A stretch of DNA of 64,000 nt from Dryococelus australis (Eukaryota > Arthropoda > Insecta > Phasmatodea > Phasmatidae), in contig CM057005.1 of assembly GCA_029891345.1 (NCBI GenBank), forward strand, positions 62,707,760 to 62,771,759, written 5' to 3'. Shown here piece by piece: positions 3,299 through 61,334 of the stretch (positions within the stretch are counted from its first letter, which is position 1; each line of letters starts with the position of its first letter). The translations under genes were made by a program, and so were the position numbers. The notes beneath the pieces are model-generated. The model saw only the letters and a program-made list of their open reading frames with translations. It was not told where the DNA came from and did not search any database.

Positions 3299-3827
3299 TA
3301 CCAAAACGTAATTGGGGAGCCGTGAAGATAGGTAATTCAGTACGTCAGTTGACCTTTGTTCACGGCCTTCGGCGTAGGACCGCTGGTGTTTGTCCGTGGT
3401 AGCATGAACACAGAGGTCTATTATAACATTCTGGGTAATGAAATGCCCCCAACATTGTGGCGTTTTTACAAAATGGACCAGTGTTACTTCCAGGATGACA
3501 ATGCCAGGTGCCATGTTTCAAGGGCTACGATGCAGTGGTACGCCGACAACAATGTTCGCCGATTTGACTGGCCCGCCCAGAGCCCCGACCTCAATCCTAT
3601 AGAACATCTTTGGTACGAATTGGATAGCCGGGTGAGGGCTCGTCAGGCACGGCCAAAATCCATTGCTCAACTCATGGGATGGTTGCAAGAGGAATGGCGA
3701 CGAATCCCCGTGGATGTCCTGCAAACACTCGTAGAGAGCATGCCAGACAGGGTGGCCCTACGAGATTCTAACTAGGAGACAACCACCGAGCAAACATTGT
3801 GGACAGGTGCCCAATTACTTTTTGGTA
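3299..3827 (+). mobile_element. Internally deleted Tc1-like element
   Basis: The left end starts TACCAAAACGTAATTGGG at 3299 and the right end closes with the matching inverted CCCAATTACTTTTTGGTA ending at 3827, both at TA dinucleotides as expected for Tc1/mariner targets. The 529-bp interior holds only the C-terminal half of a transposase, so it is a deletion derivative. Confidence 0.8.
3404..3775 (+). pseudogene. Tc1-like transposase, C-terminal half
   Basis: Family knowledge: Tc1 transposases cut and paste DNA using a DDE catalytic triad. The frame from 3404 has QDDNARCH (second catalytic Asp) and DWPAQSPDLNPIEHLW (catalytic Glu in IEH), spaced as in DD34E enzymes, then a normal C-terminus ending at TAG 3773-3775. 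The N-terminal DNA-binding region and the first catalytic Asp are missing, so it cannot be active alone. The remaining frame is intact, which suggests a fairly young copy. Confidence 0.85.
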
Positions 3828-33310: not shown

Positions 33311-33465
33311 ATGGCCGGGGCAGTTTTAGTTCTCGCATTGGTCATCCACGCAGTACTGGCATTGCCCTCCGACACCGGCGTTCATCTCGACCTGCAAGTG
33401 GATGATGCTGTTCCTACCAACAAGTTGCCTGTTTTACCACTTCCCTACAACATGCGTGCCGACAG
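33311..33465 (+). CDS. DM4/12-like gene, exon 1 (signal peptide)
   Basis: 51 codons plus two bases, donor CAG|GTGAAG. Encodes the signal peptide and a short acidic/Pro-rich stretch ending NMRAD. Without splicing the frame would stop one codon later at TGA, which supports use of the donor. Confidence 0.75.
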
Positions 33466-36400
33466 GTGAAGTATTATACGTTGTAGTTCACGGTTGACGA
33501 GGCACTTTTGAAAGTCTTGCCAAACATCTACTTCTTTGCACGTTTAAAATTAGTATTCCACTGACCCTCTACTTTATTCATGTGCCAATCAAGTTGAATC
33601 TGTCAAATTGTTATGAATGTAAATATGTAAACAATGTGCTAATTTTTTCACTAACATGTGTAAAACAGACAAAACAAATTTTTATTTTATTGAATTCCGG
33701 GGCCACAAATATAAAAGTTATTCTTTGAATACAACATTAATATATGGGACTACTATTAGTATTTAATTGCTAACATAACTGGGAGCATGCCAGTCAATAT
33801 GTGCATTAAACTATGTGCTGTTAGGGGCAATAATTTTATTTTTCACAGGTTGATTTCAAATGAGCTCTTTTTACCATGAACCAACCATCTATGATTCATG
33901 AACAACTGAATATTCATTGTGACTTGCAGCTTGCCAATGCCAGCATGAAAGGATAGAAGGAAATTACATCAAATAAACTAGAAATGTCAAATGTGACTTG
34001 GGAACGGTAGTTGTAAGGGAAATGTAATAAATACACAAATAAGAAATTAATTAAATGAAACTTCCTGAAATACTGGGGGAAATTTTGATCAAAATATGAG
34101 ATGGAAGACTAGAGATAATGTAGGTAAAATAAGGAGAACCCAATAAATATGGGAGACCTGTCAACACTACTGCTACGAATGCTCAAGGTATCAGCTCCCT
34201 GTTTACATCAAGATCACTTGCGAAGACTGCCCTAATGGGATTGGAAGCTATGTACTTGTGAGAAGATTTTTTTTGGTAATGTCAAAACTTTTGTCCCTCA
34301 GCCATTCTCAAACTAATTCTCCAATTATATTTAAGAATGAGTAAGTGCAAATCCAGAGCCACAGAGGTATTTACTGGCCTAATATGTGTCAGGACATGGA
34401 AAGGATTGTTAGTAGTTGTGAAGTGTTTCAGTTTAACACCAAGGAACAATTACTGCCTCATCTTGTACCTGACATTGGGCTCACTTATACATGAATTTCT
34501 TAGCATTTCCAGAAAAAAACTTTTAGTAACATTTGACTATTTTTTTTTTTTAAGTATCTGAGATAAACATTTTTGAGGCCAAGTTATTGAGTTAAGTAAT
34601 CAGTAATCAAAACGTTTGAAGAAGTGTTTGCAAATTTTTGTGTTCCAGATTTTGTAGTCTCCTAAAATGTGCAACTTTTCCAGGATTTTTTAAGAACAAA
34701 TTTGCATTTTGTTCCAACTGCTAATTTTGGCTTAATCTCTGCTTATGACAAAATTTAGCAATTAAATTGCATAAGCCAATGAAATCGGTAAAAACATTAC
34801 TTTTGTGCAGCAGCCATAATTATCGAATTCTAAAATAGTAAAATAAATTTAACAAAATAAAATGGAATGCAGCTTGGTGAACAAAACCTCTGACACCAAC
34901 ATCTCTTGTACATAGACATTATGGTGTAGAAGAGTTGATGATACAGTTTTATCCCACACACACAGGAAACTTAAAAACATTTCTTATTTATATATAATAT
35001 CTCATATATCCCTGCATTTTCTGAGAAAAGTTGCATGAAACTTCACACCTCAATGGTGTTCTTACAAAAATACTTTTTGATTTCCAATAACTTTGACAGA
35101 TTTTCCCTGTTTTTCAGAAGAGTGGTCATACTGTTTTTATTACTGTAGTAATGAATTCATGCAATATGATGAGGACAAATCACTAGTCCATGTTTTCCTC
35201 CTGCTAATGGGTTAACTCAAAAGGCGGTAGACACTGTAAAGCATATGCTATGTACAGTGCCAATGCGTAAGATTTCTTGTCCCTGGCAATCCTCAAGTAG
35301 AGGAATACTCACAAAGCTGTAACTGGGCAGTCTGCAACTCAAATGCTGTTGCAAGAATGCTTAAAATCATACACCCATTCTGCCAAGACCTCATGTAATG
35401 GAGATGTGCCTGCCAGAGTGCGAGATTATCCAGAAGTACTACTAACACTATCCAGTGATTGTTAATGGGGGTGGCCATGCTAGGCAACCAGAGACAGCAA
35501 CCTAAATATTGGAGGAGCTCGTTCCCGGAGGTTAATACTGCAGAGTGCATATGGAGATGGATTGCAACTCTGGTTGGCTTCGAAGGCGGTAGCTGCCTTT
35601 CTCTCCCGCTGCTGAGCACCACTCCTCCGAATGCATGACATACAGAAAGGAAGAAACATTGGCCACAAAAGAGGGAAGCAGGAGACAATGGTCCCTAGCT
35701 ATGTGTAAGGCCAAGGCCGAACAGGCAAGAGGTGAACCTGGTAAAGATGGGATCCTTGATACTGCGATACCTCGATACCCTCGAAACTTTACAGTATTGA
35801 GTGTTGCAAGAGAATACCCAAAAGTATAGAATTTTAACACTCATTTTCTTGTGCCATGATTATGGCACAAGTGTCATAATATTCGGAGCATGCAGAATAG
35901 TTGTGGAAAAGTGTACCATATGTTTTGGAACCTGTACAATAATTTCGAAAAGCATACCATAATTTAAGTAGAAGTGTACCACAATATACCATATTTTATT
36001 CATGTTTTTAGGCAACCCATACATACCACAATTATGATTTTTGACATAATTTACTTTTATGGTACATAATTGAGGTACACTAAAATTGGGTTGAGAGTTG
36101 CAAGCAAGCACCGATAGGCGCGAGTGAGCAACTTGAGTAGTTACTGTACATCCAATACATTCCACAATTATATGCTGCACTGAAACTTTTCATTTAATTA
36201 GTTTTTATCCCATTAATCACTTTTATGGTGTATATTTCTGGTACAATAAGAGCAGATAGACAGTTGCGAGTGAGCGCCGATAGGCACGACCAGTCAAAAT
36301 TAAGTAGTTATTGTACGTCATACACATACCACAATTATCTGATACACCTGTTGTGGCCTAGACCGCGTATTCCGCAGGCTACGTCACTACGGGAGTATCA

Positions 36401-39400
36401 GATAATTACAATATTTGTTTAACGTTACAGTAATTTACTTGAAGTTATAAAAAAAATTAAATTAAAAACTGCCAAATCGTAAAATAAGTGTACTGAGCTA
36501 TCATTTTCCTCAAAGTTTGATTACAACTTTTACTGCGGAAACATGATTCTATAGAATCAACGGAAACTGTTGGTTTATCATTAGTTAAGGACGTTTGGGT
36601 TACAGGCTGTCCACCATTTGTTCCCAGTGTAACGTGGGTTTTTATATAATTTGTGTATGTCAATGACACTAGTAAAATAAGCAATTTTCTTGGCCAAGTT
36701 GTTTTGTGTTCATGACAATTTAAATTTGGTATTGAGAAAAATATTGGTATTGAGTATCATGAGAAACATTTGGTATAGAAACTGGTATCGAGTAAATGTA
36801 GTATCGACCCATCCCTAGTACCTGGTGCACCTTAGTCCGGCACAATTCAGTGCGGTGGATACAGAGTGGTAGATTTCCTCAGGCTGTCCGTCAGCAATAC
36901 TTGAGTGTGGGTCCAAAGGGGATCAGACCTCCAGGTCCAGACTAGTACTTCCTCCAGCACAGTTCAACGCAGTGGACAGAGTACAGACTGGGCTGGCTGA
37001 CTACACGCTTTATGGATTGTCTTAAGAGTGGTGGCGGCTCTACCTTACTGTACACCAGGTGCACACTACAGGTGGCTGTCTAATGGGTGTGTCTCGATGT
37101 ACATGCATCCCGGTAAAGGGAGCCCGCAGTCGTGCACTATGGTTCATACTGGTTGAGGTAAAGTTCACAGTCTCCTGCTTCACTCCAATGGGCATGGTGT
37201 CTACATAGGATTAGCACAGTTAACCTATTAAACCCAGAAGTAAGCGAGAATATGAATACAATAAATACGGTGACCATACTACCTGGGTCTATCTTGAACA
37301 AGGCAAAATTGACTAGGTGGCTATTAACACAACTCTCCCTAACTATTCTAACACCATTGTCCAGAAGGGATTTGCGGGAGCCCCTATCAGAAGGGCAATG
37401 ATGGGGTGTGTTACCACTACCAGAAGAGCAGTGGTGGTTACCGTTACAATGCAAAGGCAATGCAAAGGGGTTTGATGACTTCTCCAGGGTTGCTGGTGCA
37501 AAGCTTCTATAAGGTCTGGAAGGCTTCTGTGTAGGTGTCGAAGAGCTTCTGGTAGATCATGAGGACCTGGTTGTCAGCAGAGAGCCCCAGCACAAGAGGT
37601 GGTAGAACGAGCTGCTGGAGATAAACTCACGTGTTTGGGCAGCGCATGGACATATATCCTGCTGGCCCGCCCTTGTCTGGGCTACGGAGGTGCAGATGGT
37701 CAAGTTGTCTGCTAGTGGACCGGAGCCAGGCAGGGGGAGCCAGGCAGGGCAGGGGGCGCCATCCCTCGGCGCACCTTAAAACTGCCTGAACTTGGAATGC
37801 AGTCTCGGCCGCTCGACGGTGGCTCATTCGCACTTTGGGGAGGCGAGCATGATTTCTAACAGCAGGTGAACAGTACAATCTGATGCATCTGTAATAGTCC
37901 CCGCGACAAGAGGCATATCCTGTAGGCACTTTAGTAGATGTAGTTCATGGTTAAGAACCTGCCTGGGGTGACATGAAGGCACGTGCTGATGAGACAAAGT
38001 CATTTAGTATTGTCAGAAAAGATGTCACGCGTCAAGGGTATACACCTGGAAGAGACAGTGAGTGAAGAGATTTAGACAGCTCTTAACATTGAGGTCTTGG
38101 TAGCCGATGAGGGTGATTGAGGTGAGTATGGAGCGGCGCCGGAATGAAAGGGCAGGGGAAACGGGAGATTGCAGAGAAAACACACCGACCAATAGCATCA
38201 TCCGGCACGATTCCCACATGTTAAAATCCGGAGTGACCCTGCCGGGGATTGAGCCCGGATCACCTTGATGGGAGGCGAGCGGGCTAACCGCTCAGCCACC
38301 GTGGCCCCTGGAAGAGAGAGGGTGCAGCACATTAAAGGAGGACAACTTCCAGCTTGTCCTACAAAGGCTGAGACACCTACTTCAGACTTCTGTGGCACGT
38401 TCCTTGCACCGTAAATCCACCGTCTCCTCGGCCCCTCTGCCTGAGGGAAGGTGGTGAGATGCCTGGAACCCCAACCTAGCTATGCCCCTGCCACAGATCA
38501 GACAAGGCCAACCTTGAGCAATGCTCCTCATGCCCAGCGGGCCATTATTGAGCTGCATGAGACACTAAACCCCACAACCAAAAAAAAATCCACTAAGACA
38601 ACGTCGCTTGCTTCCCAGCTGTCAGTTGATTAGGGGGGGGGGGGGGGGGGGAGTCTTCCAATGCCATCAATTATTATCCCACCAGATAGGTGGGGCATCA
38701 CTCTCCAGTTCTTTTATTGTACACATACAAACTTTCCTTCAGAGTATTTAAATGTGAACTACACCATGCCAAAAATTATTGAAAAAGCAATCACAGTAAC
38801 CTGTAATACAGTACAGTAATTTACTTTTAGTAACATAACCAGCAACTGTCAATATCCAAGAAGTAAATATGTACAAAGTGTAATATTATGAAATCTTTAA
38901 AAATCTTTGTCAAAATTCTGTATAATCTTTAGTTACGATTAGTCTGTTTACATCCACTGTGCTTCTTGCTGATGTGTGGCATTTGTGATGTCAGCTGCAG
39001 ATGGTGCAATGCATGCTGATGTCAAAAGCTAAAATTTGGCCAGTCTTAGTTCACGGCACTTCATCTTTAGAAGCATGATCATGGGATGGTTCAGGCATGC
39101 ACTGGACCACCCGTAAGGAAAATGTTAAAACAGACACTAAAAATATCTCCTGTGACTTACTACCAAGGAAAGCACAAGATAAGTACAGTCAACTCTTGAC
39201 ACTAAAACCCTGAGAATAATGACCCTTTCGAAATACCAACAATTTTTTGGGGAACTGTGGAAAATTTCAAATATAATCTTACAAATGTGGATATCTTAGT
39301 CAATTCACTGGAACCATTTCACTGTATTTGACATATACAACATGTAACTTTACCCCACTAAAGCCATGCAAAAACCACCTAAGTAAAACTTTAATGCAAT

Positions 39401-42400
39401 TTTTCTGTATAGGGGTTATGAGTTGGTCTGAATCTGTCCAAATTAAAATAATGAACCCTTTGAAGGTATGACCCTTTTCCTGGAAGTGTGAAAGGTTGTA
39501 GTTTTGAAAGTTGACTGTATATTGAGACAAACTGAATTTTAATTTCATTCGCTGGTTTCATTTTACGTACTATAAGAAAGATTCTAACATCCTTGAAGGG
39601 AACACTGCAAATACACTAAAACCCCGAATAAACAAACATATAAGTAACGAAAACAACAATCTAAAGTAAAGGTTTTTCAGGAACCGTCAAAAAAACCCAA
39701 AAGATTTTAAAAAGAATAAAATATCCTTGCTAAAATGGAATAAATTGTAATGAAAACCTAATGAAAATACATTCACTGGCTCATGGCAATAATATGTATG
39801 TATTTCTCGGTACATACCCTTAAAACATCTGCCAAAACACAAAAAAAAATTGGTTAAAGTCAGTTTAAAACTACTACGGCTGAGATTTGAGTTAAGTGCA
39901 TACGAGCCTAGAAATTTAGACTTCGCATAACATATGACATCATGAAGGGCTCTTTTGTTCTTCACCCCTCCCTACCTTGAGTGCCTACCTACCCTCCAAC
40001 CATGCTCACATAGCTACAGTTGTAGTTAATAACAGTGCAGGTTAAAGATTGAATAATATTGTGTCATATCTGAAGCAGTTGTGACATTATTTTGATGTGA
40101 ATTCAGTAACGGAGACAAAGCACGTCTCGGTGGTGTTGTCGGTTAAACAAACGTTTGGTGTGTTGGCGATTTGGTGTCTCCATATGAGCTGGGGAACAAG
40201 TCATTTGTGGAGTTGGAAGTGGTCCTAAAAATGCATTATAGTCCAAAGGCACTGGTGATTGCAGAATGATTTAAATTTCACAGGAGAGTGCAAAAAGAAA
40301 ACAAGTCCATCGCCAAGTTTTCAGTCCCCATTAAGCATTTGGTACAAATGTGCAATTTTGGCACATTTTTGCCAGAGGCATTGCGAGATCATTTGGTTAG
40401 TGTCAAAACATTCAGCAAAAGCTCACTAAAACTGGGTATACACTGGAGCAAGCACATGCATTGTCAATGACATTGAATCAAGCAGAAAAACAACAGATCA
40501 GTTGGTATAGGACGAAGTGTGCACAGTATGGGTGCAAAAGAAACAGCCTCCAGGAGTGGGAACCTCAGGAAGTAGTTTTCATCAGAGAGAATGTTATCGC
40601 TGCAGCAGTACGGAGCACATGGCAGCGACAGGCCTTTACTCACAATATAAGTCTCATAATTGATCTAAAGTACGGTATTTGGCCAGGAAATGTAGGATGC
40701 AGAAGTCGGCTACAGTATGTGGTGTCAGGGAACACAAAACTGAGGAGCCAGGAGTAGGGTACAGGATGAGTGAGAATGACCAAAATTACATCCTCTACTT
40801 GTTTATCATGCATCAGCAGCAGTTGGTAGCTACCGTGAGTTACCATGTATCAGTGATGGTAGACTGCAGACCACTGATAAGGCAAGTGGATACAGTATCG
40901 GCAGTTACTTTAGTGACGAACAAAACATATCAAGAAAATTGGCCAGACTGGCAGTTACGAAAATTGGACATCAAGATGTAAACATATTTTGGGGACTACT
41001 TGCCAGTGAAGGGGAAAGTAAACGTGGAGGTAGTATAAGGAACAGAAGAAGCAACTGCCACTATTGGTGGTGGACTCTGAACAACAGCAACTTTCTTCAT
41101 TACTAGGAAGTGATTGGAGCAGTATAAGTGTGGTTCAGTTCAGTGGACCAGGTGCTGAATGGAGCAGATACGAAAATGGGGGGGGGGGGGGGGGGGGGGA
41201 GATAAAGGAGAGAGTGCTGAAAAGGCAACTGTGTAAGTATGCAGAGATATTTAATGAGGCCTTTGAGGAAATCAAACAGTTTGTGGCCAACTTTATGCCC
41301 AAGGAGAGTGTTTCACCAGTCTTACTCAAGGCAAGGATGGCAACTTATGCACTCTAAGAAAAAGTGGAGCAGGATCTGTAGTACTTAGAATAGCAACAAA
41401 TCCTGGAAAAGGTTACCTACAGCAATTGGGCAAGCACCTTGGTAGTGGTACCTATGGCGAATGGCGAGGTAATATTGTGTGCTGATTTTAGGGCTACTGT
41501 AAATCCTAGGATAGAGCAAGCACACCAGCCACTTCCATGTATAGATGAAATTTTTGCATCTTTGGGGAATGGTAAAGTGTTTTGTGTGCTGGACTTGTCA
41601 AATGCTTACCAGCAGCAGGTGGTGGGGAAAAGAGTTGCATCCCTTGACCACCATCTTTAAACCTAAGAAGGCGGTTCCATCTTTAGCAGCAGCACAATTG
41701 CAGTGGTGGGTTTTGCCCCTTTCGACATATGACTATTCCATTGAGTACAAAAAAGGGCAGAAATGGGTAATGTTGATGCGCTGTGGAGGTTACCACTATC
41801 TCAAGCACAGACCATAGAGCAACCAGTCTTCCAGGTTCAGCATCTTCAGAACTTTCCAATCACGGCAGGGGAGATTGCTATGAAAATGGAACAGGACGAC
41901 GAATTGAAAATGATGAAAAACTATACTAGGTATGGATGGCCGAACCATGTTAATGAGCCCAGCATAAAACCTTATGCAAGCAGAAAGGATGAATTGTTAG
42001 TGGAAGAAAACAGTGTCATGTGGACAGACAGTAATTCCACAAGTAATACGAGAAAATAAGTTGCAAATGTTGCACGAGGGTCATCCTGGGGTATTTAGGA
42101 TGAAAATACTGGGAAGAAGTTATGTTTGGTTGCCTGGAATTTACAAGAGTGAGGACAAGGTAAAGAGGTGCGAGGCTTGTCAGCTGTCTAGACATAACAA
42201 GGCTCAAATGGTGAGGGTATCATGGGCAGAGACTTCTCAATTGGGAAAGCCAGTACATGTCAGTTTGACAAAAAAGGAAGGAAAAAGACTATTGATATTA
42301 GTGAATGCCTCTTCTAAATGGATGGATGTATGACCTAAGCAGAGCACAATGCCAGAGAAGACAATTGAAAAGCTATGAATAGTCTTTGCTGCATATGGTT

Positions 42401-45400
42401 TTCTCAAAAGGCCGGTGGCCGATAATAGGCCGCAGTTTTCGTCAGAAGAATTTGAGCGGTTTTATGAGACAAACGCAATCATATTGCAGCTGACTCCACC
42501 TTTCGACTCACAATCCAATGGAGCAGCATAGAGAACTGTGCAGTAAGTGAAGATTGCACTTTTAAAGCAGGAACAGGAAGTGGTTTAATGAGAAGGGGGG
42601 GGGGGGGACCATCCCTGCAACATACCATCGATAAGTGGTTGTTTACATACCGAAATATACCATGTGTGGTGACTGGGAAAACCCCAGTAGAAATGTTTTT
42701 GAGGAGGAAACCACGTGCGAGGTTGCTGTTAGTGAAGCCAAACCTGCCAGAATATAATGATAAGACACTTAGAGTGGTTCAAGATGCACGATTCAGTGTG
42801 AGGAATCCAATATTGGTGAAGTGCGACCATGGGGAACAGGCAAGATGGCTACCAGGGTGTAGTGTAGGAATAGCGAGCCCGGTGACGTACAAGGTTAAGG
42901 TTAGGGACGTCATAAGATTTTGTCGTCTTGATCGCTTACGCAAGTGTCACCTGCAAGAGGGGGTGTCTTTGGACGAACAGAGGAACTCACCCCATACTGC
43001 ACCTAAACAAGAGGGAGAGTGGAGCCGTGTGTCTTCACGGAAGATAGGAGCAACATCAAGAGTCGGAGTGGCATCAGCACCAAAGTGGCCTGTGACAGAA
43101 GCAGAATCCATGGTCAGAGCAGCAGAGCAGTCAGCAATTGGAGCAAGGCCAAGAATCAGATCAACATCAACACTAGAGGCACCAGCAGCAACAGGAGAAG
43201 AGTCAAGAGCCAGAGCAGCATCTGCACCAGAGCAGCCGGTGACAGGTGCAGCATTCAGAGTTAGAGCAACAGCCATACCAGAGCAGCCAGCAATGGACAT
43301 AGTGCAGGACCAGGCAGTGGAATGGTTACAAGGGGCATCAAGCACAGGAGACAACAGCAAAGAGGTACGTGGTTTTGGTGTGGAAACTAAAGCTCCTCTC
43401 AGAGGGGGATCGTAAAGAGCAGTGAAAGGCTGAGGCATTGTCCTCCAACATGGTGGGAGAGGTAGACAAAATTAATTAGTCTCTAGACCAGTTAGGGGTG
43501 GCCATAAATTTAGAAGGGAGAAGTGTAGTATTGAGTAATTATGGTGCCAAGGTTGGCAGCCGTGAGTGTTGACATGGTGGTGTCTGGGTTCGGCACATAA
43601 AATGTTAAATTAAAAAGTTAGTTCCTATGTCCTTGGAATGGGACCACCCATCACTAGAACACTGGCCAGCTCTGACCAGGCATAAGTTTACCACTCGAAT
43701 GCAACGTTAGCACCTGATGCCACAGGTCATACGGATTAATCAAGTGATGTATCAGTGACAACTTTGTCAACTCGAACAGATGAATTTGTGTAATTTTTGT
43801 AATCTGTACATAGACTGCTAGACCTACAACTAAGAAAATAATCTTTTTTTTTTTTTTGTTGCCCAAATGTTTATGCTGATTTTCTGTAGTGTGAAAATTC
43901 TGTCTCACAAATTTTCTCCATAATTAGAACAAACTATAATCACCTTAGCCTAAAATACCAGTGCACCTTAGGTTAATGAAATGATAGGCCATTAGAAAAT
44001 TAAAAAACTAATTATTTCGCTGTGTGTTATGTTATTTAAACATGTTTTTCTCCACAGCAGTCGGACAGCACCCAATGGTGGTTTCTACATTGCTGCTGAT
44101 GTACCAAAAGCAATTTCCAACTCTCAGAGGCAGAAAAATAAACATCTCAAGCACAAGATGAAATATTCCTCCCAAGTGAAGGAAAACAAAGATGCTGTGT
44201 CACCTCATCCTGAGCAAGCTGATGAATACACAGGTGAAAAGGTTCATACTCTCTCATGCCTTCAGTAACATATATGTCAAAAATACAAGACAAATCTCTC
44301 TTTATTTAAATATATGTATGTGCGTGTGTGCATACGTATGTATGTATGTATGTATGTATGCATGCATTTATGAACGTATGTACATACACTGCCAGATGGT
44401 AAAAATAGCACACACAAAAAGATGTATTGGATGGTACTGGAACCTGATATGTAAAGACAGTGATACAGTACACATTATACAAATGACCACAAAAACAGAG
44501 CAGCATGACAATTACATAAGGATTTGTGGTAAGCTGTCTGGTCATATTCAATAATTGACGGGTGCCGCTTATACAAATAATCTAATATGATTACGACTCA
44601 TCGCCTAGAGTACCTCTTCCACAACTACAGATGTGGTTGACACGTTGCCTACCTTACAGGCAACGGGAACTTTGAGCAAATTTTTCTCACCTGGAGGATA
44701 CACAACCCGGCAGGTCGCCGCTCCCCTACCCGCGCTGAGAGCCTGCAAGCTGCCCAGAACTCGGTTAAGGCTGAGCGCCTCCGACGAGGCACGAAGCAGA
44801 ATCGCTAACCAGAGTATTCCCACGCCAACCAGGGCCGGAGGACGTCACGCCTCCCCCACACCCCGTGCCGGCAGCCTACAAGCTTCCACTATATAAGTCC
44901 GGACGCTGCCGAGCTTGACAGTCATTCACTTTCCATCTCTTGCGTTATCCCACAGCACTGCTGCCAGTGCTGGGACAGCCTGAGATCTTCGAAGCATTGA
45001 GTACGCTCCCTGCGGCTACTTCACCATCGACAACCAGTCAACCCGACAACCAGCAAACACGCTTAACAACATGTTAAATTCATTTTGTCTCCTCAAGACA
45101 TCTTCTTTAGACAGTTTAGTAGTATAATATATTTTCTCATTACGCTCTTTCTTTCCCATTCTCCATTAGAACCAGGTCGCCTACACCTGGTCAGCGTAGT
45201 AACCTTCGGCACTCAATTGCCTGTGGTAGGAAGTAACATGCATCGCATGTTTATTGAGACTTCAATAAACGTACTGTTGTCTCCTACTTCTCAGCTTTTC
45301 TTTGTTAGAGTATCTGTCTGTTTACCCTCTAGATATGGGTTGCTATGTACACCTTTGATGAGGACCGGGGAATTTATAACTACCGAATTCACTTCAGTCA

Positions 45401-48400
45401 TGGGCGCCCTTCAGGGGTCCGTCATATTTTCACACACCCATTAGACAGCCATCTTTTGCTTCCCAAACTACAACAGGTTTGTTTCCAGTGCCGGTGGGGA
45501 GGAACAGAGGAGCCACAACAACTAGCAACACCTTCACCCAGAGAGGGGCGATAGTCTCAAGTTATTGCCTTATCCCACGGCACTGCTTCCAGTGCCGAGG
45601 CTTGAGATCTGTCATCCATTCCTGTGTGGATGCACATCCAGTGGCGACATTGGTGACCCAAACAGCTCCACGTCTCTGATCAACCCGCATAGCGTGGGGG
45701 ATTAGTGGAGACTTTACAGAGCCTGGTCAGCAAGCCAAAACCGGACTTACACTAATAACTTGTGTTCAGTATTTGAGTCAAGGTGTACCCAGTAACCTGT
45801 GGGTGGAGACTTAATGCCTTTCAGTCAAAGGTACGGCCGTAGGCGTAGGGAGCAACACGCAACGCTTCTTGCCGCCAGACAGTTAAGTGCACTTCCTCAG
45901 CCTATATCAGAAAGGCAGGCGGAACGGAACCGCATTGCCCAACTCAGGCATGAGTCAGTATTGACTGCCCCGATTGCAGTATTATTTGTTTCTCCGTGCA
46001 TACGCATTCACCCGTCGTGCCATCCTGTGGTAAAAGGATTGTTGAGCGGTATGAAAGTGAGGTTCAGTTGGGATAACATCCACATCTGGACAAACGAATC
46101 TCACCTGTGGAACCGCAGCCACGGTGTGGGCCAGGCTCGTTACGACTGGACCAGGTACACCACCAACATGACACCCAAGAAGTAGGAGTAAGTGAGTACT
46201 AGCCAACACTCCTTGCCTCTCGTCGCCTAGCTAACTCAATCACCCAGCTTTTGGTCTAGCAGACAGAATCCTCGACTGTCGTGACTATTAACATAGCCAG
46301 TCACACATCATAGTGTATTGTGATACATGCTGCAACACAGCTGTTATGAGTTCCAGCAGATGCCAGATGTTGTCCTGAGGCATACAGGCCCACAGTTGTT
46401 GAAGGTGTGTTCGAAATCCCAGATATTGCGACATGGCGGCAGATGGAATTTCAATTGGCCCCACATATACCCAATTGGGGACATTCCAGGGAGGGGGGCA
46501 AACCAATTTGTAGTGTTTGAACCTGACGAAGGCAGTCCTGGGCTACCCATGCCATGTACAATGTACAGTCAGGCGTTATCCTGATGGGATATCGCACTGG
46601 GAATCCTGACCATATATACAGAAGCAGATTGGATTGTAGGATCTCGTCCACATACCACTGTGCCTTCCAATACCATAGTGCCTGCCATTGGAGTATGCTG
46701 CTTGATAGTGAGATTGGTACATATTTGTGGTGTTCACCAGAGGCCATCCACACCTGGACACAATGATCATCAGTCGCCATAATGAAGTGGCACTCATCAC
46801 AAAATATCACACATAATCAGTCAGCAAAATTCCACATTTCTCTGGCCTCGCACCACTACAAACAAAACTGCTACTGTTCCAGGGTTAATGACAGCACATT
46901 TAATGATCACTAGGATCACAGTTTCGCCTGCGCAAGGCATCTAGAAATGGTTTGTTGGCACACAGGAGCCCCAATACTGGCCAGTATCATGGACGGGATC
47001 ACCATGGTATTCATCCCTACCTGCCTCATTACCAGTCGATTCTCTTGACCGGTAGTTGTCCTAAGTTGGTCCTCCGTGTATGGGTGCCTTTATGTATCCA
47101 CTGTTCCCAACAGCATCATACTGTATGGTCCAAAACAATCCACATGGTGTGCTATACTGCCACATGACCACCCTGCAGTTTTCAGCCCGATTATGAGTCC
47201 TCTCTCGAAGTCCGTCAGTTACATAAAGCGACGTCTTTGGTGTCTTCCTGGCATTCTTCGTCACTCTGTACACTTGCTACATAATATCTGGTGTTTTACG
47301 CATTAATGCAGCTTCGGCTACACACCAGTGTTTACAATTGTTGGTCGTGCTTGCAGCGCCACTGCTGGGTATGTAGTCAAATGCAAACACACCTTCATGA
47401 GATTGTGAATACCAGCCCATATGCTTTGATATTGACATTGTTTTACTGCTGTTACCATGGTTTCTTCATTGTGTGCTATTTTCATTGTCCAGCTCTGTGT
47501 GTGTGTGTGTATATATATATAAAGTAAACATCAGCAAGTCATCAGCATATAGTAATATATATAGAAAGCATGGCAATTTACTATAGGCTGATGACTTGCG
47601 GATGTTTACTTTTTTGTTGATTTTCTTGTTTATGCACCACAATTTGTCATATATTTGAGTATATGAATTACACAATTGCAAGTAAAACTTTAAAAGGTTT
47701 TACTTTTAAACTATTCCTGTGAATGAAAAATTATCAACCCTGAATGAGTTGTCAACATTACACCAATACGTAATTATTTAAATGTCTGTACTAAGGGAAA
47801 TGAAGCCCAAAAGCAGTATATTAACTCATTTTTGTCACAAGTAATTTTTCAGAGGTTATTTTCAAACTTTTTTGCATGACAAGTCATTAATAATTCACTC
47901 AGTTCTCATTTCTAAGATCCCTAGAATAGTAACCCTCTCGAAATAACTACATACTTGGTTGGGGAACCATGAAATTTATTCAACTGAAAAGGTTCTTCCA
48001 AAAACAAATCCCTCCAGAATAACAACCCTTTCCCCAGGAAACATGAAATATCTTACAACTTATCTCTTGCAGTGCCAAAATTTTAGGTACACCTCTTGAA
48101 AAACAACTTTTAAACAAAAACTGCATGACTATACTACTTTCATGCACTGTTCTCCTTAATGGTGTAACCAGAACATAATAATAGAGGTAACATATTCAAC
48201 CTCCATTTAGATAAATACTATTTGTTTATCAAATTAAATTAAAGCTATTTTATTTATTAAATTATGTTTAGATTCCTCATTCATACCAGAAGGTATGATA
48301 GCCGACTTTGGCTCCAAAATAATTATCACTGGGCCAAACAGTGATGACTATCCCCAAGGTGAGATAATAGTTGAAGAAGAAAAGACAACCGATGAATTTA

Positions 48401-51400
48401 TGGAGCAGACATTTGGTACTGGACTGGAACTTCTTCAATTGCGGCAGAAGCTCCAGAAACTTGACTTCTATTTCAACTTTCTTGGTATCGTCCATGAGGA
48501 CTGTCGCCAGAAAATCCTGTGCGAAGTCCTAAAAGAACCCAGTAGGTTCTATCCTTTCAGTGGTGTGCTAGACGATGCCACTAGGTAAGCTGCATATGCA
48601 ATAATAATTAGACTTGCTATTGGGCAGCTGCATGGTGGCAAGTCCATTCTTCCCTCTCCCTTACTTCAATCCCGGACTTTACCCTTCCCAAACTTTCAAA
48701 CCGTTCTTATTGTTACCACCTTCTGCAACAAATTCCTCTCTCTCACAGACCTCACAAGCTTAGACTGTCTCCTCTGTTAGATTTCAGTAGAATCACAATA
48801 TAATTAACACATTGGGCACAGTTGTTACATTTCAGTACAATTAGATGTGAATAAATTATGTGTAATTAGCAAGACAAAATTTCTGTTTACCAATTTTATT
48901 CTTCCATTTGTCTTCTCATAAGAAAACTATATACAATTATCACTTGATTCTTCTGAAAAAAATACAATTCAATACTTGTTACTTAGTTTTTCATCCTCTT
49001 GTTGCAGCAATTATGTCACTATCTTTTTCATCATTACTTTACATTAAAAAATTCACATACTACGTTTCACATTTCTTTTTAACCTGAATACACACATCCA
49101 TCATTGATGGTATCAGTTATCATTTTGCTAGAAAATGTTGTTTGAATTTACTTCGGCCTCTTATGTTGTCACCTGTCATCTGATTGGCTGTGGTCTGACC
49201 ACACCAAATCTCTCCCCTAATCAGCGATGGCGAGACGAGAGACAACCAGGATAATTTTCTTTTGTGCTTTTTTCTTAATACACATTGAATACTTTTTATC
49301 ATCTAGGAAATAATGAATACTAACAAACAAAATTATAACACTGCATATAGTTTAGAAACAAATCAAATATACTTACACATGATCATGTCAATAAAATATT
49401 AAATTGACCAAAGATAATACCGTATTTTATTTAACTCGTATAATAAAGTGTAATTTGGAAAATATATTAAATGACGTGACAACATAAGCAAGTATTCCGT
49501 AATCACATCTAATTAAAGTAACTCTGACCAGCGGTAAACTTAACCCCTCAAAAAAACTGCAATGTTACAGCCCCACTTAGTTTCTTTCCTATTCTCTTAT
49601 CTTTTCATCACTGTTTCCTCTCCTCCTATACACACTTTTAGCCAGCAACCTAACCTTCCCATTCTTTCATAACCTGAGCCTCAAAATGTCAGGTCTTGCC
49701 GATCCTCAAACAACACCTATACGAAGAAAACTAAAATTATAGTGTTGCTCACATAAATTAATTTTTTGTGACACAAATTTCGCTATTGATTTTGGTGGCT
49801 TTCTTCAGTGAATCTTGTATCTATGTACTTAGAAGCGTGCTGCTGTGACTGTGTTTGTCAGCAACTCCGTAGAGAAGTTAATTTTTTTTTAAAAGTACAC
49901 CTACATTGTGACATCACTTCACTTGCTGTGGTGTACGCATGCTGTGAAATTGTAAGTGTATGTCGTGAACAAGTTAAGAAATTTTGTGTAAATGTTTACA
50001 GCTTCTACGGTGACTTTCAAAGCCTGAACTCTGAGCTCGCCAACACAACAGAAGGTGCCCGGCTACTATCCTACATGGAGGCTGCATTTCGAGCTCAAGA
50101 AAAGTGAGGTCAAAACCATGGGCATTTCTGTTGGCTATATAATTAGCAATAATGAGTTGTCTGCCTATAAAAAAAAGTCTCATTGCTTCTTGATGCATGA
50201 CCATTACACAAAGTATTTTTGCATTATGGTTTTCTTTATACTATGAGTTCATCACACTATTAAAATTAAGTTTTTTAAACAATATGCTTAGCACGGAAAT
50301 GCTACTGAATACTCTACGGAATAATTATTGCCGTGAATACGTCTTTTAAAATTTGCAACCATAAGGGAGGCAATCCAGAAAACCAGATGATAACAAAATC
50401 AGGGGATACAGTTTGGCATTGCAGCTCCGAATCCATCACCTACATTCAAAATTCAATTACACCACTAGATTGCCAAAGGATAATAGAATATGTTACATTG
50501 AGTGTAGTGCAAAGTATCGCGTGGAACAGGGAGAGGCCACAATTTTGAGATTGTTTCGCAGCATCTCATAACTTCCACATAATATAACTTTTGACTAGGA
50601 GAAGCTACGACATTCATTTAGGTTTCAATTGACAGCTCTCGTCAAGTTCAATCGATTGAGTGTATAAAAAATTTGTGTGGCGTGGTTATGGTGAAATTGT
50701 ATGTGCTTAATGTAAGAAACTAAGAAAACTTAACACAATTTCGGCCTATACTCGTCAAAAAGCCACGTCGAATTACAGATATTGTATATGGTTGGAAAGA
50801 GCATCTCAAAAGCAATTCAGTGATAACCATAAAACCCCATATGATCAAGTGAAGCAGTGTTGGGAATTAAAAAAAAAACATCAAGGCATCTGAGCTCATC
50901 AATGTACATGTATTCATGCAAAACAAATGGCCATGTCTACAACATAGCCAAACCCAAGTTATTTTTGGAACTCTTTCTGTTTATATTAACCTGTCTTTTA
51001 TTTCAGTTTTTAATCAGGGCCCAAAGACATCAGTTTCATTCCTCTCAGTTAAAAAAATTTGCCAATAATAACTCCAAATAATTTCCCCATAGTGTGTATA
51101 AAGTTGTGCAAAGTAGCACATATCGGTGGGGCTCACACACAGTATGTTCCACAGCAGAGCGGCATGCAGTACTGGGGTTATCAGAATACCTTACAACAAT
51201 CCGTTACTTGTTAGATTGCTGGGGTTATCAGAATGCCCTACAACAATCCGTTACTTGTTAGATTGCATCATAATTTTGGTGTCAAAGGTGCGCCACCATA
51301 TGTTACTTTTGAAAATAACATTAAATCATTATCAAAAGTGAATAAAATAAGATTATTTGTTTTGAGGAATTAAAATCACTGTTAAGTGCAGTCAACTTAT

Positions 51401-52341
51401 TATAAGACTCCAACTCGATCCGACTTCCCTCATAACTTGGCTATTACACCACGGCTGTGATGATGCAAATTTTTTTACTTGCCAGAGAGACTTTCTGGAG
51501 TAATTTCCACAATCAGCTGCTCCAAATCTGCCACTTGCAAGAAACAAAATTATTTGCTTCTTTAACTGCCATCACATACTGCTCTGCTCCACTGCCTGTG
51601 TGCGATGACTAGAGACATGAGAAATTCACGAGTACAATGACATGTAGGCTAGACTTCACAGTCTTATTTACTCTCATACAGCTATCAACTGTTTATTGGT
51701 CAATTGTTGTGGTAGTAAAAGGCGGTGGTTGGGAGCACAATTTATTACATGTTTGTTATTGGCTCATTTATCTCCAGCAGGTGTCGAACATGTCGACCAA
51801 TTAAAAAAGTAACATGAACGTACAAGTGTATGAATTCTAACATGTCTAGAAATGAACCTACGAAATTCCCGGGTCTCTAGCTACGACCCATGCTTATACA
51901 TTATTAGTTTGTTTCAAAAGCAGCAGCTGCTGCACTCCAATCCACAGGGCTGTATATGTGTATGCGCCCTGTGACATCCTCCATGACAGGATGAAGTCAT
52001 GAGTGAGCCATGAATGAGTGTAAAATTTCTAAGTTTAGAATGATTTATAGATTGGCCATCTTCAAGCATAAAAACAAATCATATAAAACCAAAAATATAT
52101 ATATATTTTTTTCATTATGAAGTAAACATTACCTTTCTGTTGCTGTTTTGTGGTTGGCAGGAGTCGCTCATGTGGTATTTTCAAGTACCAGTGCCCCTTC
52201 CCAACGGAAGAGATGATCAACTACGACTCACTGTGCCTGTGGGGTGAGATGGTCCGCTGGTTGACCATCCACGTTGTGGCCAGGAAGAGCGAGTGGAACC
52301 TGCAGCCACTTCCTTCAAGAACATTCACACCATGGGCCTGA
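33311..52341 (+). CDS. Secreted DM4/12-like protein, five exons
   Basis: Exons 33311-33465, 44058-44233, 48272-48584, 50002-50103 and 52161-52341 join with compatible phases (2, 1, 2, 2) and no stop, giving 308 residues. Residues 1-17 are a classic signal peptide (MAGAVLVLALVIHAVLA), so secretion is inferred. Residues 72-96 are Lys/Gln-rich. Cys188 and Cys194 (DCRQKILCE) and Cys253 and Cys260 (SCGIFKYQCP) reproduce the C-x5-C and C-x6-C layout of the DM4/12 family, whose function is largely unknown. There is one N-glycosylation sequon at Asn229 (NTT). The start has a good context (AACATGG). The tail after Cys274 (WGEMVRWLTIHVVARKSEW) is longer than I expect for the family. Exon chaining is direct from sequence; the family call is by eye. 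Confidence 0.75.
35848..35871. repeat. 10-bp perfect inverted repeat
   Basis: CTTGTGCCAT, GATT loop, ATGGCACAAG, inside the hAT-like element. Confidence 0.8.
36015..36340. repeat. Tandem repeat, about 137-167 bp spacing, three partial copies
   Basis: The block CATACCACAATTAT recurs near 36020, 36158 (ATTCCACAATTAT) and 36322. The last two are preceded by GTGAGCGCCGATAGGC-like sequence (36113 and 36280). It is internal to the hAT-like element. Confidence 0.65.
36830..38060. other. Intron 1 spacer with LTR-like similarity to 12.5 kb
   Basis: Around 37380-37440 the - strand reads GGTAACACACCCCATCATTG then CCCTTCTGATAG, close to GGTAACGGCAACCCTCATCA then CTACCCTGCTGGTAG on the - strand near 12450-12490. 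A GC-rich frame at 37627-37929 (-) has no motif. Confidence 0.3.
38063..38308 (-). mobile_element. tRNA-derived SINE, copy 4 (in intron 1)
   Basis: The head GGGGCCACGGTGGCTGAGCG at the right edge and box-B-like GGGCTCAATCCCCGG are followed by the shared body. It lies antisense to the host gene. Confidence 0.85.
38633..38651. repeat. G19 homopolymer
   Basis: Nineteen consecutive G in intron 1, following an A-rich stretch. Confidence 0.95.
39184..39519. mobile_element. MITE-like element with TACAGTCAACT ends
   Basis: TACAGTCAACT at 39184-39194 is matched by inverted AGTTGACTGTA at 39509-39519. The 336-bp interior has no ORF and includes phrases such as ATAATGACCCTTTCGAAATA. A related degraded copy lies near 47905-48085. 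The ends and TA border suggest a Tc1/pogo-type parasite. Confidence 0.55.
40260..40750 (+). pseudogene. Gypsy gag remnant
   Basis: FHRRVQKENKSIAKFSVPIK then QMCNFGTFLPEALRDHLV follows a conserved stretch of Gypsy gag. A degraded segment near 40690 (KCRMQKSATVC) sits where the zinc knuckle should be. The frame is broken after about 40470. Confidence 0.65.
40840..41130 (+). pseudogene. Gypsy aspartic protease remnant
   Basis: VSVMVDCRPLIRQVDTVSAV then TLVTNKTYQENW matches the Gypsy protease active-site region. The catalytic DTG (family knowledge) reads DTV here, which should abolish activity. A stop follows at about 40979, then YFGDYLPVKGKVNVEV resumes in another frame. Confidence 0.7.
41439..41820 (+). 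pseudogene. Gypsy reverse transcriptase start joined to RNase H end
   Basis: VVVPMANGEVILCADFRATV and FCVLDLSNAYQQ are the first RT motifs. The sequence then jumps to RLLSLDHHL-like filler and QLQWWVLPLSTYDYSIEYKK, the end of RNase H. The YxDD-bearing RT core is missing, so an internal deletion of several hundred residues is implied. Confidence 0.75.
42040..43000 (+). pseudogene. Gypsy integrase remnant
   Basis: The zinc-binding HHCC region is visible (LHEGHPGVFRMKILGRSYVW, then CEACQLSRH), followed by a decayed catalytic core (ADNRPQFSSEEFERFY). A stop near 42530 and a G13 run break the frame; from 42588 the C-terminal part resumes (TYRNIPCVVTGKTPVEMFLR). Confidence 0.8.
43010..43415 (+). 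other. Ala/Arg/Pro repeat tail after the integrase
   Basis: The open frame continues beyond the integrase with imperfect units of about 17-20 residues containing RVGVASAPKWPVTEAE, RARAASAPEQPVTGAA and RVRATAIPEQPA. This is low-complexity tail sequence of the Gypsy ORF. Confidence 0.5.
44058..44233 (+). CDS. DM4/12-like gene, exon 2
   Basis: 58 full codons with a tandem acceptor CTCCACAGCAG. Starting after the first or second CAG keeps the frame and changes one Ser. Encodes GGFYIAADVPKAI and a basic stretch (RQKNKHLKHKMK). The donor is ACAG|GTGAAA, phase 1. Confidence 0.75.
44640..45680 (+). mobile_element. LTR-like retroelement sequence in intron 2
   Basis: A promoter-like CTATATAAGTCCGGAC at 44889, AATAAA near 45264, and a CATTGGTGACCC stretch near 45649 resembling a primer-binding-site context suggest an LTR and leader. 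The block TTATCCCACAGCACTGCTGC (44946) recurs at 45568. No matching second LTR or pol was found. Confidence 0.35.
46240..47330 (-). mobile_element. Tc1-like transposase relic in intron 2
   Basis: On the - strand MIFCDECHFIMATDD (first catalytic Asp context), WYVDEILQSNLLLYI, and GMSPIGYMWGQL (degraded final-acid motif, normally SPIEHxW with Glu) occur in order. Multiple stops and frameshifts; not functional. Confidence 0.7.
47521..47612 (+). ncRNA. 92-nt hairpin, pre-miRNA-like, in intron 2
   Basis: Arms 47521-47555 and 47578-47612 pair at 33 of 35 positions around a 22-nt loop. Both mismatches are A against G, spaced 14 apart. The size and near-perfect stem resemble an intronic microRNA precursor, but a young fold-back element would look the same. 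It is adjacent to a (TG)n(TA)n tract. Confidence 0.35.
47905..48085. repeat. Degraded relative of the 39184-39519 element
   Basis: Shared phrases: AGAATAGTAACCCTCTCGAA against AGAATAATGACCCTTTCGAA, and CCCTTTCCCCAGGAAACATG against ACCCTTTTCCTGGAAGTGTG. Terminal repeats are not preserved. Confidence 0.5.
48272..48584 (+). CDS. DM4/12-like gene, exon 3 (first cysteine pair)
   Basis: The acceptor is ATGTTTAG|ATTCC; an alternative at CATACCAG|AAGG (48290) also keeps the frame and drops six residues. Encodes an acidic segment, a Leu/Gln-rich helix (LELLQLRQKLQKLDFYFNFL) and DCRQKILCEVLKEPSRFYPF. Donor TAG|GTAAGC, phase 2. Confidence 0.8.
48585..50001. other. Intron 3
   Basis: AT-rich. No element with clear ends and no ORF with motifs was seen. 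Confidence 0.6.
50002..50103 (+). CDS. DM4/12-like gene, exon 4
   Basis: Acceptor TGTTTACAG, donor AAA|GTGAGG, both phase 2. Encodes SFYGDFQSLNSELANTTEGA then RLLSYMEAAFRAQEK, with the only N-glycosylation sequon (NTT). It occupies the spacer between the two cysteine pairs. Confidence 0.78.
51172..51265. repeat. 47-bp tandem duplication in intron 4
   Basis: CTGGGGTTATCAGAATACCT... at 51172 is repeated at 51219 with a couple of substitutions. No other feature is seen in intron 4 (50104-52160). Confidence 0.85.
52161..52341 (+). CDS. DM4/12-like gene, terminal exon 5 (second cysteine pair)
   Basis: Acceptor GTTGGCAG. Encodes SCGIFKYQCPFPTEEMINYD and a Trp-rich tail ending PSRTFTPWA at TGA 52339-52341. 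A strong internal donor-like GGG|GTGAGA at 52244 leaves open an alternative splice that would replace the tail. Confidence 0.7.
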
Positions 52342-52469: not shown

Positions 52470-52475
52470 AATAAA
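52470..52475 (+). terminator. Poly(A) signal AATAAA
   Basis: AATAAA 129 bases after the stop of the DM4/12-like gene, followed by AT-rich sequence. Its position supports 52341 as the true end. Confidence 0.6.
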
Positions 52476-58555: not shown

Positions 58556-58925
58556 AGCTTCCGAACATTTCCAGTTGCCGTGACTGCGGATGTATGCGAG
58601 ATGTTCAGACAAATAATTCTTGATCTCATTGATAGGAAGTACCAGTGTATCGTTTGGAGGAATTCAGTGGACGACCCAGTTAGCGTGTACGAGTTGAACA
58701 GTCACGTACGGGCTGGCTTCTTCACCTTTTCAAGCCCTCCGCACCCTGCAGCAACTTGCAACAGATGAGGGTAACAAGTTTCCACTAGCTGCTCATACTA
58801 TACTCAATGATGTCTTTGTTGACGATATAGTTGCAGGAGCTGCAACTGTTGCCGATGCTCAGCTGCTAAAGTCTCAGCTCATCAGACTCTTGGCAGTAGG
58901 AGGGTTCAAACCGCATAAGTGGTGC
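58556..58925 (+). pseudogene. BEL/Pao reverse transcriptase (partial)
   Basis: FRTFPVAVTADVCEMFRQI and IVWRNSVDDPVSVYELN open the fragment. After a frameshift near 58705, LRTLQQLATDEGNKFPLAAH and the catalytic FVDD (58815-58826) follow, then GGFKPHKWCSN. Confidence 0.85.
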
Positions 58926-59830
58926 TCCAACCGTGAGGAGCTCTTGGATGACCATCAATATGAATCTGAGAACTCATCTCGTATGTTTGGTTGTCCTGAT
59001 TCAGTGAAAGTGTTAAATCTACGCTGGGCCCCAGTACAAGGCCACTTTTTGTACAAAGAGACTGTCCCTGACATACCAGTGACAAAGCGTGGTATACTCT
59101 CAGCTGTTGCTCGTCTTTATGACCCATGTGGATGGGTAGCACCAGTGGTCACATCCAGTAAGATATTGTTACACACCTTTTGTTACACACCTTGTGGAAT
59201 CAAGGCCTGGGTTGGGATAAGCCATTTGGAGAAGAGATATCAAGAGTGTGGACACGTTTTAAGGACTCTTTGCCATCCTTGTCTGAAGTTAATATGAGCA
59301 GATTCGTTCAAGTCCATGAACATAACATACAGTTTAATGGTTTTTGCGATGCCAGCAAGAAGGCATACACTGCAGTCATTTATGCTCGTTGTGTTACAGC
59401 TGGTGGTGCCACTGAAGTGCGCCTGCTTGTTGCCAAGTTCAGGGTGGCACAACTCAAGACTCTGTCTGTTCCAAGGTGCTGTGTGTAGCAGTTTTGTTAT
59501 GTAAACTTTGGCAATGTGTTGTAAGACACCTATTATTCAAAAGTTGTTAACCTGACATTGCATGCCTGGACAGACTCCACAGTAGACCTAGCCTGGTTAC
59601 GATAGTCACCACACAGTTTAAAAACCTCTATCGCCAATTGAGTTGCAGAGATCCAGTCCATTATACCATCTAGTTCCTGGAGGCATGTTCCGTTGGAACA
59701 TAACCCTGCTGATGTTGCTTCACGTGGCTGTTTTCCAGACCACTTGGTGAACACAATATGGTTTTCAGGACTATGTTGGGTGTTGCAACCTCATGAGAGC
59801 TGGCCTGTGCAGCATTCTTGAGAGAGAGCA
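58926..59830 (+). pseudogene. BEL/Pao A17 peptidase-like and RNase H region
   Basis: VKVLNLRWAPVQGHF and VTKRGILSAVARLYDPCGWV then APVVTSSKILL are the conserved block after RT. A short repeat (CACACCTTTTGTTACACACC) shifts the frame; then FNGFCDASKKAYTAVIY marks RNase H. Later parts are interrupted. Confidence 0.8.
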
Positions 59831-60008
59831 TCTCTTCCCGAAGTTAAACCAGTGATGTCCAGTGTCTTGGTGGCGAACTCCAATCAGATGCAGAACTCTG
59901 ATGACCCTTTTGGATTGTTGCAGAAATCATCTTCCTTTTTTAGACTTCAAAGAGTTATGGCATGGATCTTACGAACGAGAGCAATTTTCTGAAAACTAAC
60001 TCATTCCA

Positions 60009-60848
60009 TTGGCAAGTTGCAGACAACTGAGGAGTTGTGCACTGCCCGTAATTACTGTGTCAAGATTGTGCAGGCAAATTACTTCAGGGAAGAGATTAGA
60101 GCCTTGGAAATGGGAGAACCATGCTCTAAACCCATTAAAAGCCTTGTGCCATTCTTGGGCTCGAAGGGTGTTGTCAGGGTGGGCGGCAGGCTGATAATAC
60201 ACCTTTGACTGAAGATAGTAAGCATCCCATCCTACTTCCAAAGCAAAGCACACTGTCCGAATTGATTATAATGCATTGTCACGTGACCAACTTGCACATG
60301 GGTCCATCAACCACACTGTACCTGACACGTCGAGAATACTGGATAATTTCTGCTCGCACTTTGATTCGTAAGCTCCTTGAAAACTGTGTCGCATGTTTTA
60401 AAGTGAGTGCAGCTTCATCAGCCCCACTGATGGGCAAGCTCCCTGCCTCACGATCGCCCAGGGTAGAGCATTTTGCAATGTTGGAATTGACTTTGGGGGC
60501 CCATTCCTTGCTACCCCAGTTAAAGCGAGAAAGATGACCACCCAGAAGGTTTATCTGTGCTTGTTTGCCTGCATGGTGACAAAGGCTGTGCACCTGGAGC
60601 TCGTGACTGACCTCTCTGCAGCAGCATCCCTTGCTGCACTGAAGCGCTTTGTATCCATTCGAGGGCTCCCATCAGAGATATCCTCAGACAATGGAACCAA
60701 CCTGGTGGGTGCCAGAAACTACCTGAAAGAAGTGTACAAAAGCCTCTTCTGTAGAGAAAGCCAGCAACAAATTGTCATTGAGGCCAGTCACAGAGGGATA
60801 AAGTGGCAGTTCAGTCCCCCTGCCAGTCCCCACTTTGGTGGCCTCTGA
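60009..60848 (+). pseudogene. BEL/Pao integrase
   Basis: The zinc-binding region reads IIMHCHVTNLHMGPSTTLYL and ENCVACFK. The core has VYLCLFACMVTKAVHLELVT, SDNGTNLVGARNYLKEV and WQFSPPASPHFGGL, where the next codon, normally Trp in the family, is TGA (60846-60848). Confidence 0.85.
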
Positions 60849-61334
60849 GAGGCAGCGACTAAAAGTGTAAAACAACACCTGAAACGTGTGGTGGGAACAC
60901 AGCTGCTTACCTTCGAAGAGCTGGGAACTCTGTTTGCACAGATATCTGCAGTGTTGAACTTTCGACCACTATGTGCTTTGTCGGAGGATCCTCGAGAGTA
61001 TGATGTTCTCACCCCGGGGGATTTCCTAGTGGGTGATGCTTTGGTAGTTCTGCCAGATCACGACTTGTCAGATCTTCCTCAGAACTATCTTGACCGGTGG
61101 GAGCTAATCACTCAGTTCCAGCAGAGGGTGTGGAAGTGGTGGAGTAACGAATATCTACACACATTCCAGCAGAGAAACAAATGGACATCACTGCAGCCCA
61201 ACATTCAAGTTAACCAACTGGTGCTGCTGAAAGAGCCAAACTTGCCTCCACTGAAGTGGAAGACAGCACGTGTGACTGAAGAGCACCCTGGCCAGGATGG
61301 AATAATGCGTGTCATGTCATTAAGAACACTTTAA
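60849..61334 (+). pseudogene. BEL/Pao C-terminal domain
   Basis: Continues in frame after the TGA: EAATKSVKQHLKRVVG, then RPLCALSEDPREYDVLTPGD, YLDRWELITQFQQRVWKWW and VLLKEPNLPPLKWKTARVTE. This is the best preserved part and ends at TAA near 61332. Confidence 0.85.

Follow-up and report, generated by a model that had tools for sequence, protein, structure and literature searches.

A probable DM4/12-type gene of Dryococelus australis, with a putative signal peptide and a possible link to Osiris genes through a relative

Introduction

The DM4/12 proteins form an insect family whose function is poorly understood. The locus described here raises the question of whether five short open frames, spread over 19 kb of repeat-rich DNA, form a gene of this family, and if so, to which of its members the gene is related. 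They lie in a stretch of 64,000 nucleotides from the stick insect Dryococelus australis (GCA_029891345.1, contig CM057005.1, positions 62,707,760 to 62,771,759), which we call the window and whose first base is position 1 throughout. An initial annotation, made from the letters of the DNA, had read the five frames as the exons of a secreted DM4/12-like gene running through mobile-element debris. As for the family itself, one list gives 30 Drosophila genes of a single gene class with a DM4/12 domain (PMC8664486), and in honey bee larvae, a table of changing gene groups holds DM4/12 genes together with cuticle and chitin-binding proteins (PMC9764631).

Results

Anatomy of the gene model

The five exons (Table 1) join as the initial annotation had read them, into 927 bases including the stop codon, which encode 308 residues without an internal stop. 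All four introns of this model are of the GT-AG type, and the two, one, two and two split-codon bases ahead of exons 2, 3, 4 and 5 match in phase. The poly(A) signal that had been reported is present as well. Five cysteines are found in the predicted protein (residues 188, 194, 253, 260 and 274); the first four make up the two pairs that had been described, C188-x5-C194 and C253-x6-C260, and C274 is an extra one. In exon 3, a proline stands six residues beyond the second cysteine of the C-x5-C pair. Residues 1-17 (MAGAVLVLALVIHAVLA, followed by LP) read as a signal peptide by eye, and secretion of the protein is plausible from this N-terminus.

Table 1. Positions of the exons of the gene model and of associated features in the window
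Feature	Position	Strand	Description	Basis
Exon 1	33311..33465	+	Start codon, signal-peptide-like N-terminus, residues 1-51	Open frame, GT donor, GC1 > GC2
Exon 2	44058..44233	+	Charged linker without cysteine, residues 52-110	Open frame, splice sites
Exon 3	48272..48584	+	DM4/12-like domain, first half; phase-2 donor	Related exons in genes A and B
Exon 4	50002..50103	+	Y-x2-A segment, second half, residues 215-248	Alignment to the second-half exons in genes A and B
Exon 5	52161 or 52164..52341	+	C-x6-C-P, fifth cysteine, C-terminus, stop
Poly(A) signal (AATAAA)	52470..52475	+	129 bases past the stop
LTR-retrotransposon integrase remnant, intron 1	42001..42333	+		Integrase_H2C2 (PF17921), E 8.3e-9

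Some details of the splice sites bear on the exact product. Tandem acceptors (NAG-NAG) precede exon 2 (CAGCAG) and exon 5 (CAGGAG), either of which may leave the product short by one residue. The acceptor of exon 4 is weak (3.2 bits, second of the 68 scored), and if exon 4 were left unspliced at its end, an in-frame TGA would follow directly after residue 248. Coding character was judged by GC content by codon position only, which is coding-like (GC1 > GC2) in exons 1 to 4. In intron 1, where it was looked for, the mobile-element debris through which the gene was said to run is indeed present: besides the integrase remnant, 43 pieces elsewhere in the genome match positions 42000-42700 with 71-82% identity (40 of 76 candidates scored), some of these pieces being parts of one place.

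Direct searches with family profiles

Searching the joined protein with the DM4/12 Pfam model, the check that the initial annotation had proposed, gave a negative answer: PF07841 (DM4_12) did not match at E <= 10, either with the whole protein or with two trimmed versions, and the protein stays below the curated cut-off of 22 bits. Across the genome (3,415,067,245 bases, 646 contigs), PF07841 has 18 matches at E <= 0.001, 15 of which sit close together on contig C1, between about 390.7 and 391.3 Mb. The window gene is absent from these 18, and also from the 35 matches at E <= 10 (best 45 candidates scored). DUF1676 (PF07898), the Osiris domain, is not among the Pfam matches of the window protein either. 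Two other Pfam matches, Sas10 (E 0.026) and DASH_Spc34 (E 0.18), are below their own cut-offs and were taken as chance. Among solved structures, three matches were obtained (best E 0.53) and no relative was found.

Two relatives in the same genome

A search of the 3.4-Gb genome with the window protein (10 candidates scored) listed two places besides the five exons of the query, so that the non-self matches among those listed are exclusively the DM4/12 exons of two genes, here called A and B. Both matches are weak: the gene A exon (C1:11732083) is 39% identical over 41 residues at E 0.26, and the gene B exon (C13:53788707) matches at E 3.1. Exons 1 and 2 matched only themselves among the matches listed, and no homologue of either was found in this search. 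With the gene B exon as query, the search returned that exon itself, gene A (E 1.6e-19), exon 3 of the window gene (E 0.31) and two others (E 3.4 and 5.8).

A comparison of the two downstream regions located the exons that follow in A and B, which were then read at base level. Once spliced, both genes pass the PF07841 cut-off of 22 bits: A scores 29.8 bits and B 27.0, each covering positions 5-86 of the 86 in the model. The intron between the two domain halves is in phase 2 in both genes and in the window gene, where it separates exons 3 and 4. An alignment of the three proteins has 23 invariant columns, among them all four paired cysteines. A profile HMM built from A and B gives the window protein 32.9 bits, and the best shuffle 8.7 bits (2000 plain and 2000 cysteine-fixed shuffles, 3490 reported). 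Counted as a single comparison, the E-value with this HMM is 5.8e-10 for exon 3 alone, 1.1e-11 when exon 4 is added, and 1.9e-12 (acceptor 52161) or 1.4e-13 (acceptor 52164) for exons 3-5. The DM4/12 membership that had been proposed is thereby right in kind, though only by way of two relatives that pass PF07841 once spliced; Pfam itself does not recognise the window protein.

These matches also bear on the possibility that the chain of exons arose by chance in repeat-rich DNA, and that there is no gene at all. Nineteen kilobases with free choice of splice sites can yield open chains, and it is common for a C-x6-C to lie at a suitable distance: of the 6494 acceptor continuations that the two strands of the window offer, 39 carry the pattern Y-x2-A-x(8,12)-C-x6-C, which is thus not rare. 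In our judgement, which is not a calculation, open frames and splice sites by themselves would not exceed chance. It is because of the homology to genes A and B that we regard the chain, in itself possible by chance, as a gene. The match to A and B lies above all shuffles, and exon 3 of the window gene and the exons of A and B are mutually among the best genome matches listed, so that a chance origin appears highly improbable to us. By these comparisons, the homology to A and B sets exons 3 and 4, and more weakly exon 5, apart from a random chain; exon 3 has the best support of the exons, exon 5 less, and exons 1 and 2 none that is independent.

One of the two remaining weak matches of the gene B exon, the fragment L020 (G000:C4:231189853-231189957, about 1501-1605; E 5.8), has a C-x5-C, resembles A and B in the pattern of its residues, and obtains 17.6 bits from the A and B HMM, or 1.9e-7 on the same one-comparison scale for a fragment picked from the whole genome. 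By inspection, there are stops upstream in its frame and no GT where the donor should lie, and we took it as chance or a relic rather than a proper DM4/12 exon. Since L020 reaches 17.6 bits without a donor, matches to half of the domain are not very specific. The other weak match (L019) was set aside; it has no C-x5-C.

Exon 5 and the end of the gene

Among the homologous exons, exon 5 is the weakest. Its GC content by codon position (0.43/0.50/0.68) is not coding-like, and an HMM of A and B ranks the model with exon 5 only 159th of 365 reported (387 splice combinations). With a six-sequence HMM, exon 5 entered at 52164 comes first of 338 reported (11.5 bits; the next, a different exon, has 10.9), and entered at 52161 it comes 123rd of 338. 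The spacing from the tyrosine to the third cysteine is 12 residues with acceptor 52164, the same as in A, B and three members of the DM4/12 family (D1, D2 and D3), and 13 with acceptor 52161, one more than in the relatives. Because of this spacing and the rank with the six-sequence HMM, 52164 may be the true acceptor, in which case the protein would have 307 residues.

The mixed support from the HMMs and the GC pattern favour a gene that ends with exon 4, with the TGA after residue 248 as its real stop, exon 5 unused and the C-x5-C pair the only one; the intron between exons 4 and 5 was, moreover, not seen in any relative read (A, B and D1-D3). Yet exon 5 restores the C-x6-C pair of the family, and it raises the match both to A and B and to the wider HMM. 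When a following proline is added to the pattern, 2 of the 6494 acceptor continuations have it, and both are exon 5 (acceptors 52161 and 52164). We regard an end at exon 4 as unlikely.

The GC pattern of exon 5 is also one of the points that speak for a decaying pseudogene or relic whose frames are open by chance, together with the strong divergence from the relatives and the old retroelement remnants in the intron. Against this, all five exons are open, with GT-AG sites and matching phases, and the cysteines and the intron phase are conserved. A decayed state is, on balance, quite unlikely.

Place in the DM4/12 family

The 20 DM4/12 first-half exons of this genome that were read above the Pfam cut-off (C1:390886124 and C8:124851646, also above it, were left out) all end in a phase-2 GT donor by inspection, as does exon 3 of the window gene. 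The donor follows the second cysteine after 21-25 residues in the four DM4/12 exons counted; the window gene has 21 such residues, and A and B have 22. The window protein further shares the cysteine layout of the family, with four cysteines arranged as C-x5-C and C-x6-C, and the CE after the first pair; a CP at the second pair is common to it and some DM4/12 members. It differs from the family in being missed by the family model, and from member D2 in having 58 rather than 47 residues between the cysteine pairs.

An HMM of DM4/12 exons (19 rows, three with the second half) was built without a duplicate exon (L005), two unfetched exons above the cut-off, the repeat units adjoining exon L004, and the sub-threshold sequences L036, L037 and L049, the first of which was used in the six-sequence HMM. 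This profile gives the window protein 0.2 bits, which 1482 of 4731 reported shuffles also reach. When A and B are added, the window protein obtains 28.2 bits and the top shuffle 12.1 (5000 cysteine-fixed shuffles, of which 4710 were reported, all below the window protein). Profile comparisons with hhalign are consistent with this. The window protein, A and B together align to DM4/12 with a probability of 83 (E 9e-6) and all four cysteines in register; A and B alone reach 78.5, the window protein alone 0.3, and the window protein against A and B 95.9. As A and B alone already give 78.5, the window protein adds little to the link. Its membership is indirect, because it depends on A and B, which stand above the PF07841 cut-off, as intermediates.

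Two further observations concern other DM4/12 sequences of the genome. The exon L004 contains 5.1 tandem copies, 99% alike, at 1109-1582 (G000:C1:390788129-390788602); the repeat unit of 93 bases (31 codons) carries the C-x5-C half, and the frame is open over 186 codons. This is possibly a recent in-frame amplification, or an assembly artefact. Segments with C-x5-C or C-x6-C are also present in the sub-threshold PF07841 matches L049 (C9:47468800-47469250), L037 and L036 (C1:33194250-33198400), which are perhaps further diverged DM4/12 relatives.

The Osiris connection

At E <= 0.001, the genome has 45 matches to PF07898, and the stretch C1:10.2-11.7 Mb holds 37 of these. The region of gene A (C1:11.67-11.76 Mb) has DUF1676 exons at C1:11671866 and 11727913, followed by the DM4/12 exon at 11732056. 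As the DM4/12 exon follows the DUF1676 exon at 11727913 on the same strand at a distance of about 4 kb, with a junction in phase 0 by inspection, gene A looks like a fusion of an Osiris (DUF1676) part with a DM4/12 part. In gene B, the two exons precede DUF1676 exons of the same strand by about 120 and 90 kb. No PF07898 match at E <= 0.001 is found near the window, the nearest one listed on C13 being about 9 Mb from the window gene.

Osiris genes have been called insect-specific, and two of those in the planthopper, NlOsiris17 and NlOsiris24, combine DUF1676 with DM4_12; knockdown of the former leads to soft, transparent ovipositors, and of the latter to small, irregular forewings (PMC12825958). 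In the passages of that study on these genes, the effects are those of whole genes and are not attributed to the DM4_12 part. The two domains of planthopper Osiris 17 and 24 are those of gene A, and it is solely through gene A that they can be likened to the window gene, whose protein, unlike theirs, has no DUF1676 match.

Gene A and the window gene are 29% identical over 95 residues and have in common the four cysteines, the C-x5-C-x5-P, Y-x2-A and C-x6-C motifs, and the phase-2 intron between the domain halves. Gene A alone appears to have DUF1676 and two further stretches, one rich in His and one reading VPVPVPVP; in their place, the window gene has its signal-peptide-like start and the linker. 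The second half of the domain is without an intron in gene A, which passes PF07841, whereas it is interrupted by an extra intron in the window gene, which does not.

Discussion

Together, our data make it probable that the window holds a single-copy, strongly diverged, stand-alone gene for a secreted DM4/12-type protein of about 308 residues, which belongs to an Osiris-linked branch of the family and whose nearest relatives in this genome appear to be genes A and B. If its transcript is spliced as modelled, a signal peptide would direct the protein into the secretory pathway. The charged linker, about 150 residues without known relatives, would precede a C-terminal four-cysteine domain that is split across exons 3-5 and presumably descended from the DM4/12 domain. 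Two disulfides among C188, C194, C253 and C260 would most likely hold this small domain together, and outside the cell the protein would probably serve a structural or binding function in the apical matrix of epithelia or in the cuticle. Our reasons for proposing secretion, the disulfides and this site of action lie in the family and in the knockdowns of relatives.

As for how the gene came to stand alone, a DM4/12 domain may have escaped from an Osiris-type fusion, gained an intron and acquired a signal peptide of its own, to become an independent secreted protein that is single-copy and evolves fast, an origin that we consider conceivable and somewhat short of an even chance. If it were true, the window gene would bring the DM4/12 genes of Osiris type to three, itself missed by the family model, and would suggest that further ones escape notice in insect genomes. 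That a member below the threshold is reached only via its relatives suggests, in any case, that the DM4/12 family is wider than annotated. That one of these relatives is apparently fused to an Osiris domain suggests that part of the family is tied to Osiris genes with cuticle phenotypes. The kind of gene is known and holds no surprise, and the Osiris tie is a concrete functional lead.

Other features of the window

Positions 38236-38301 on the minus strand resemble the head of a tRNA-derived SINE by eye, with itself as the only match within the window. ARAGORN called no tRNA in the window, and the tRNA-derived repeat therefore stays a suspicion. At 3353-3775 there is a Tc1/mariner-like DDE_3 transposase fragment (E 5.3e-9). 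Remnants of a BEL/Pao-type retrotransposon occupy positions 58698-61334, where Peptidase_A17 (E 9.9e-7) and DUF5641 (E 2.1e-27) each have an open frame of their own. The open frame at 377-1051, possibly an exon of another gene, encodes C2H2 zinc fingers (PF00096, E 9.5e-6).
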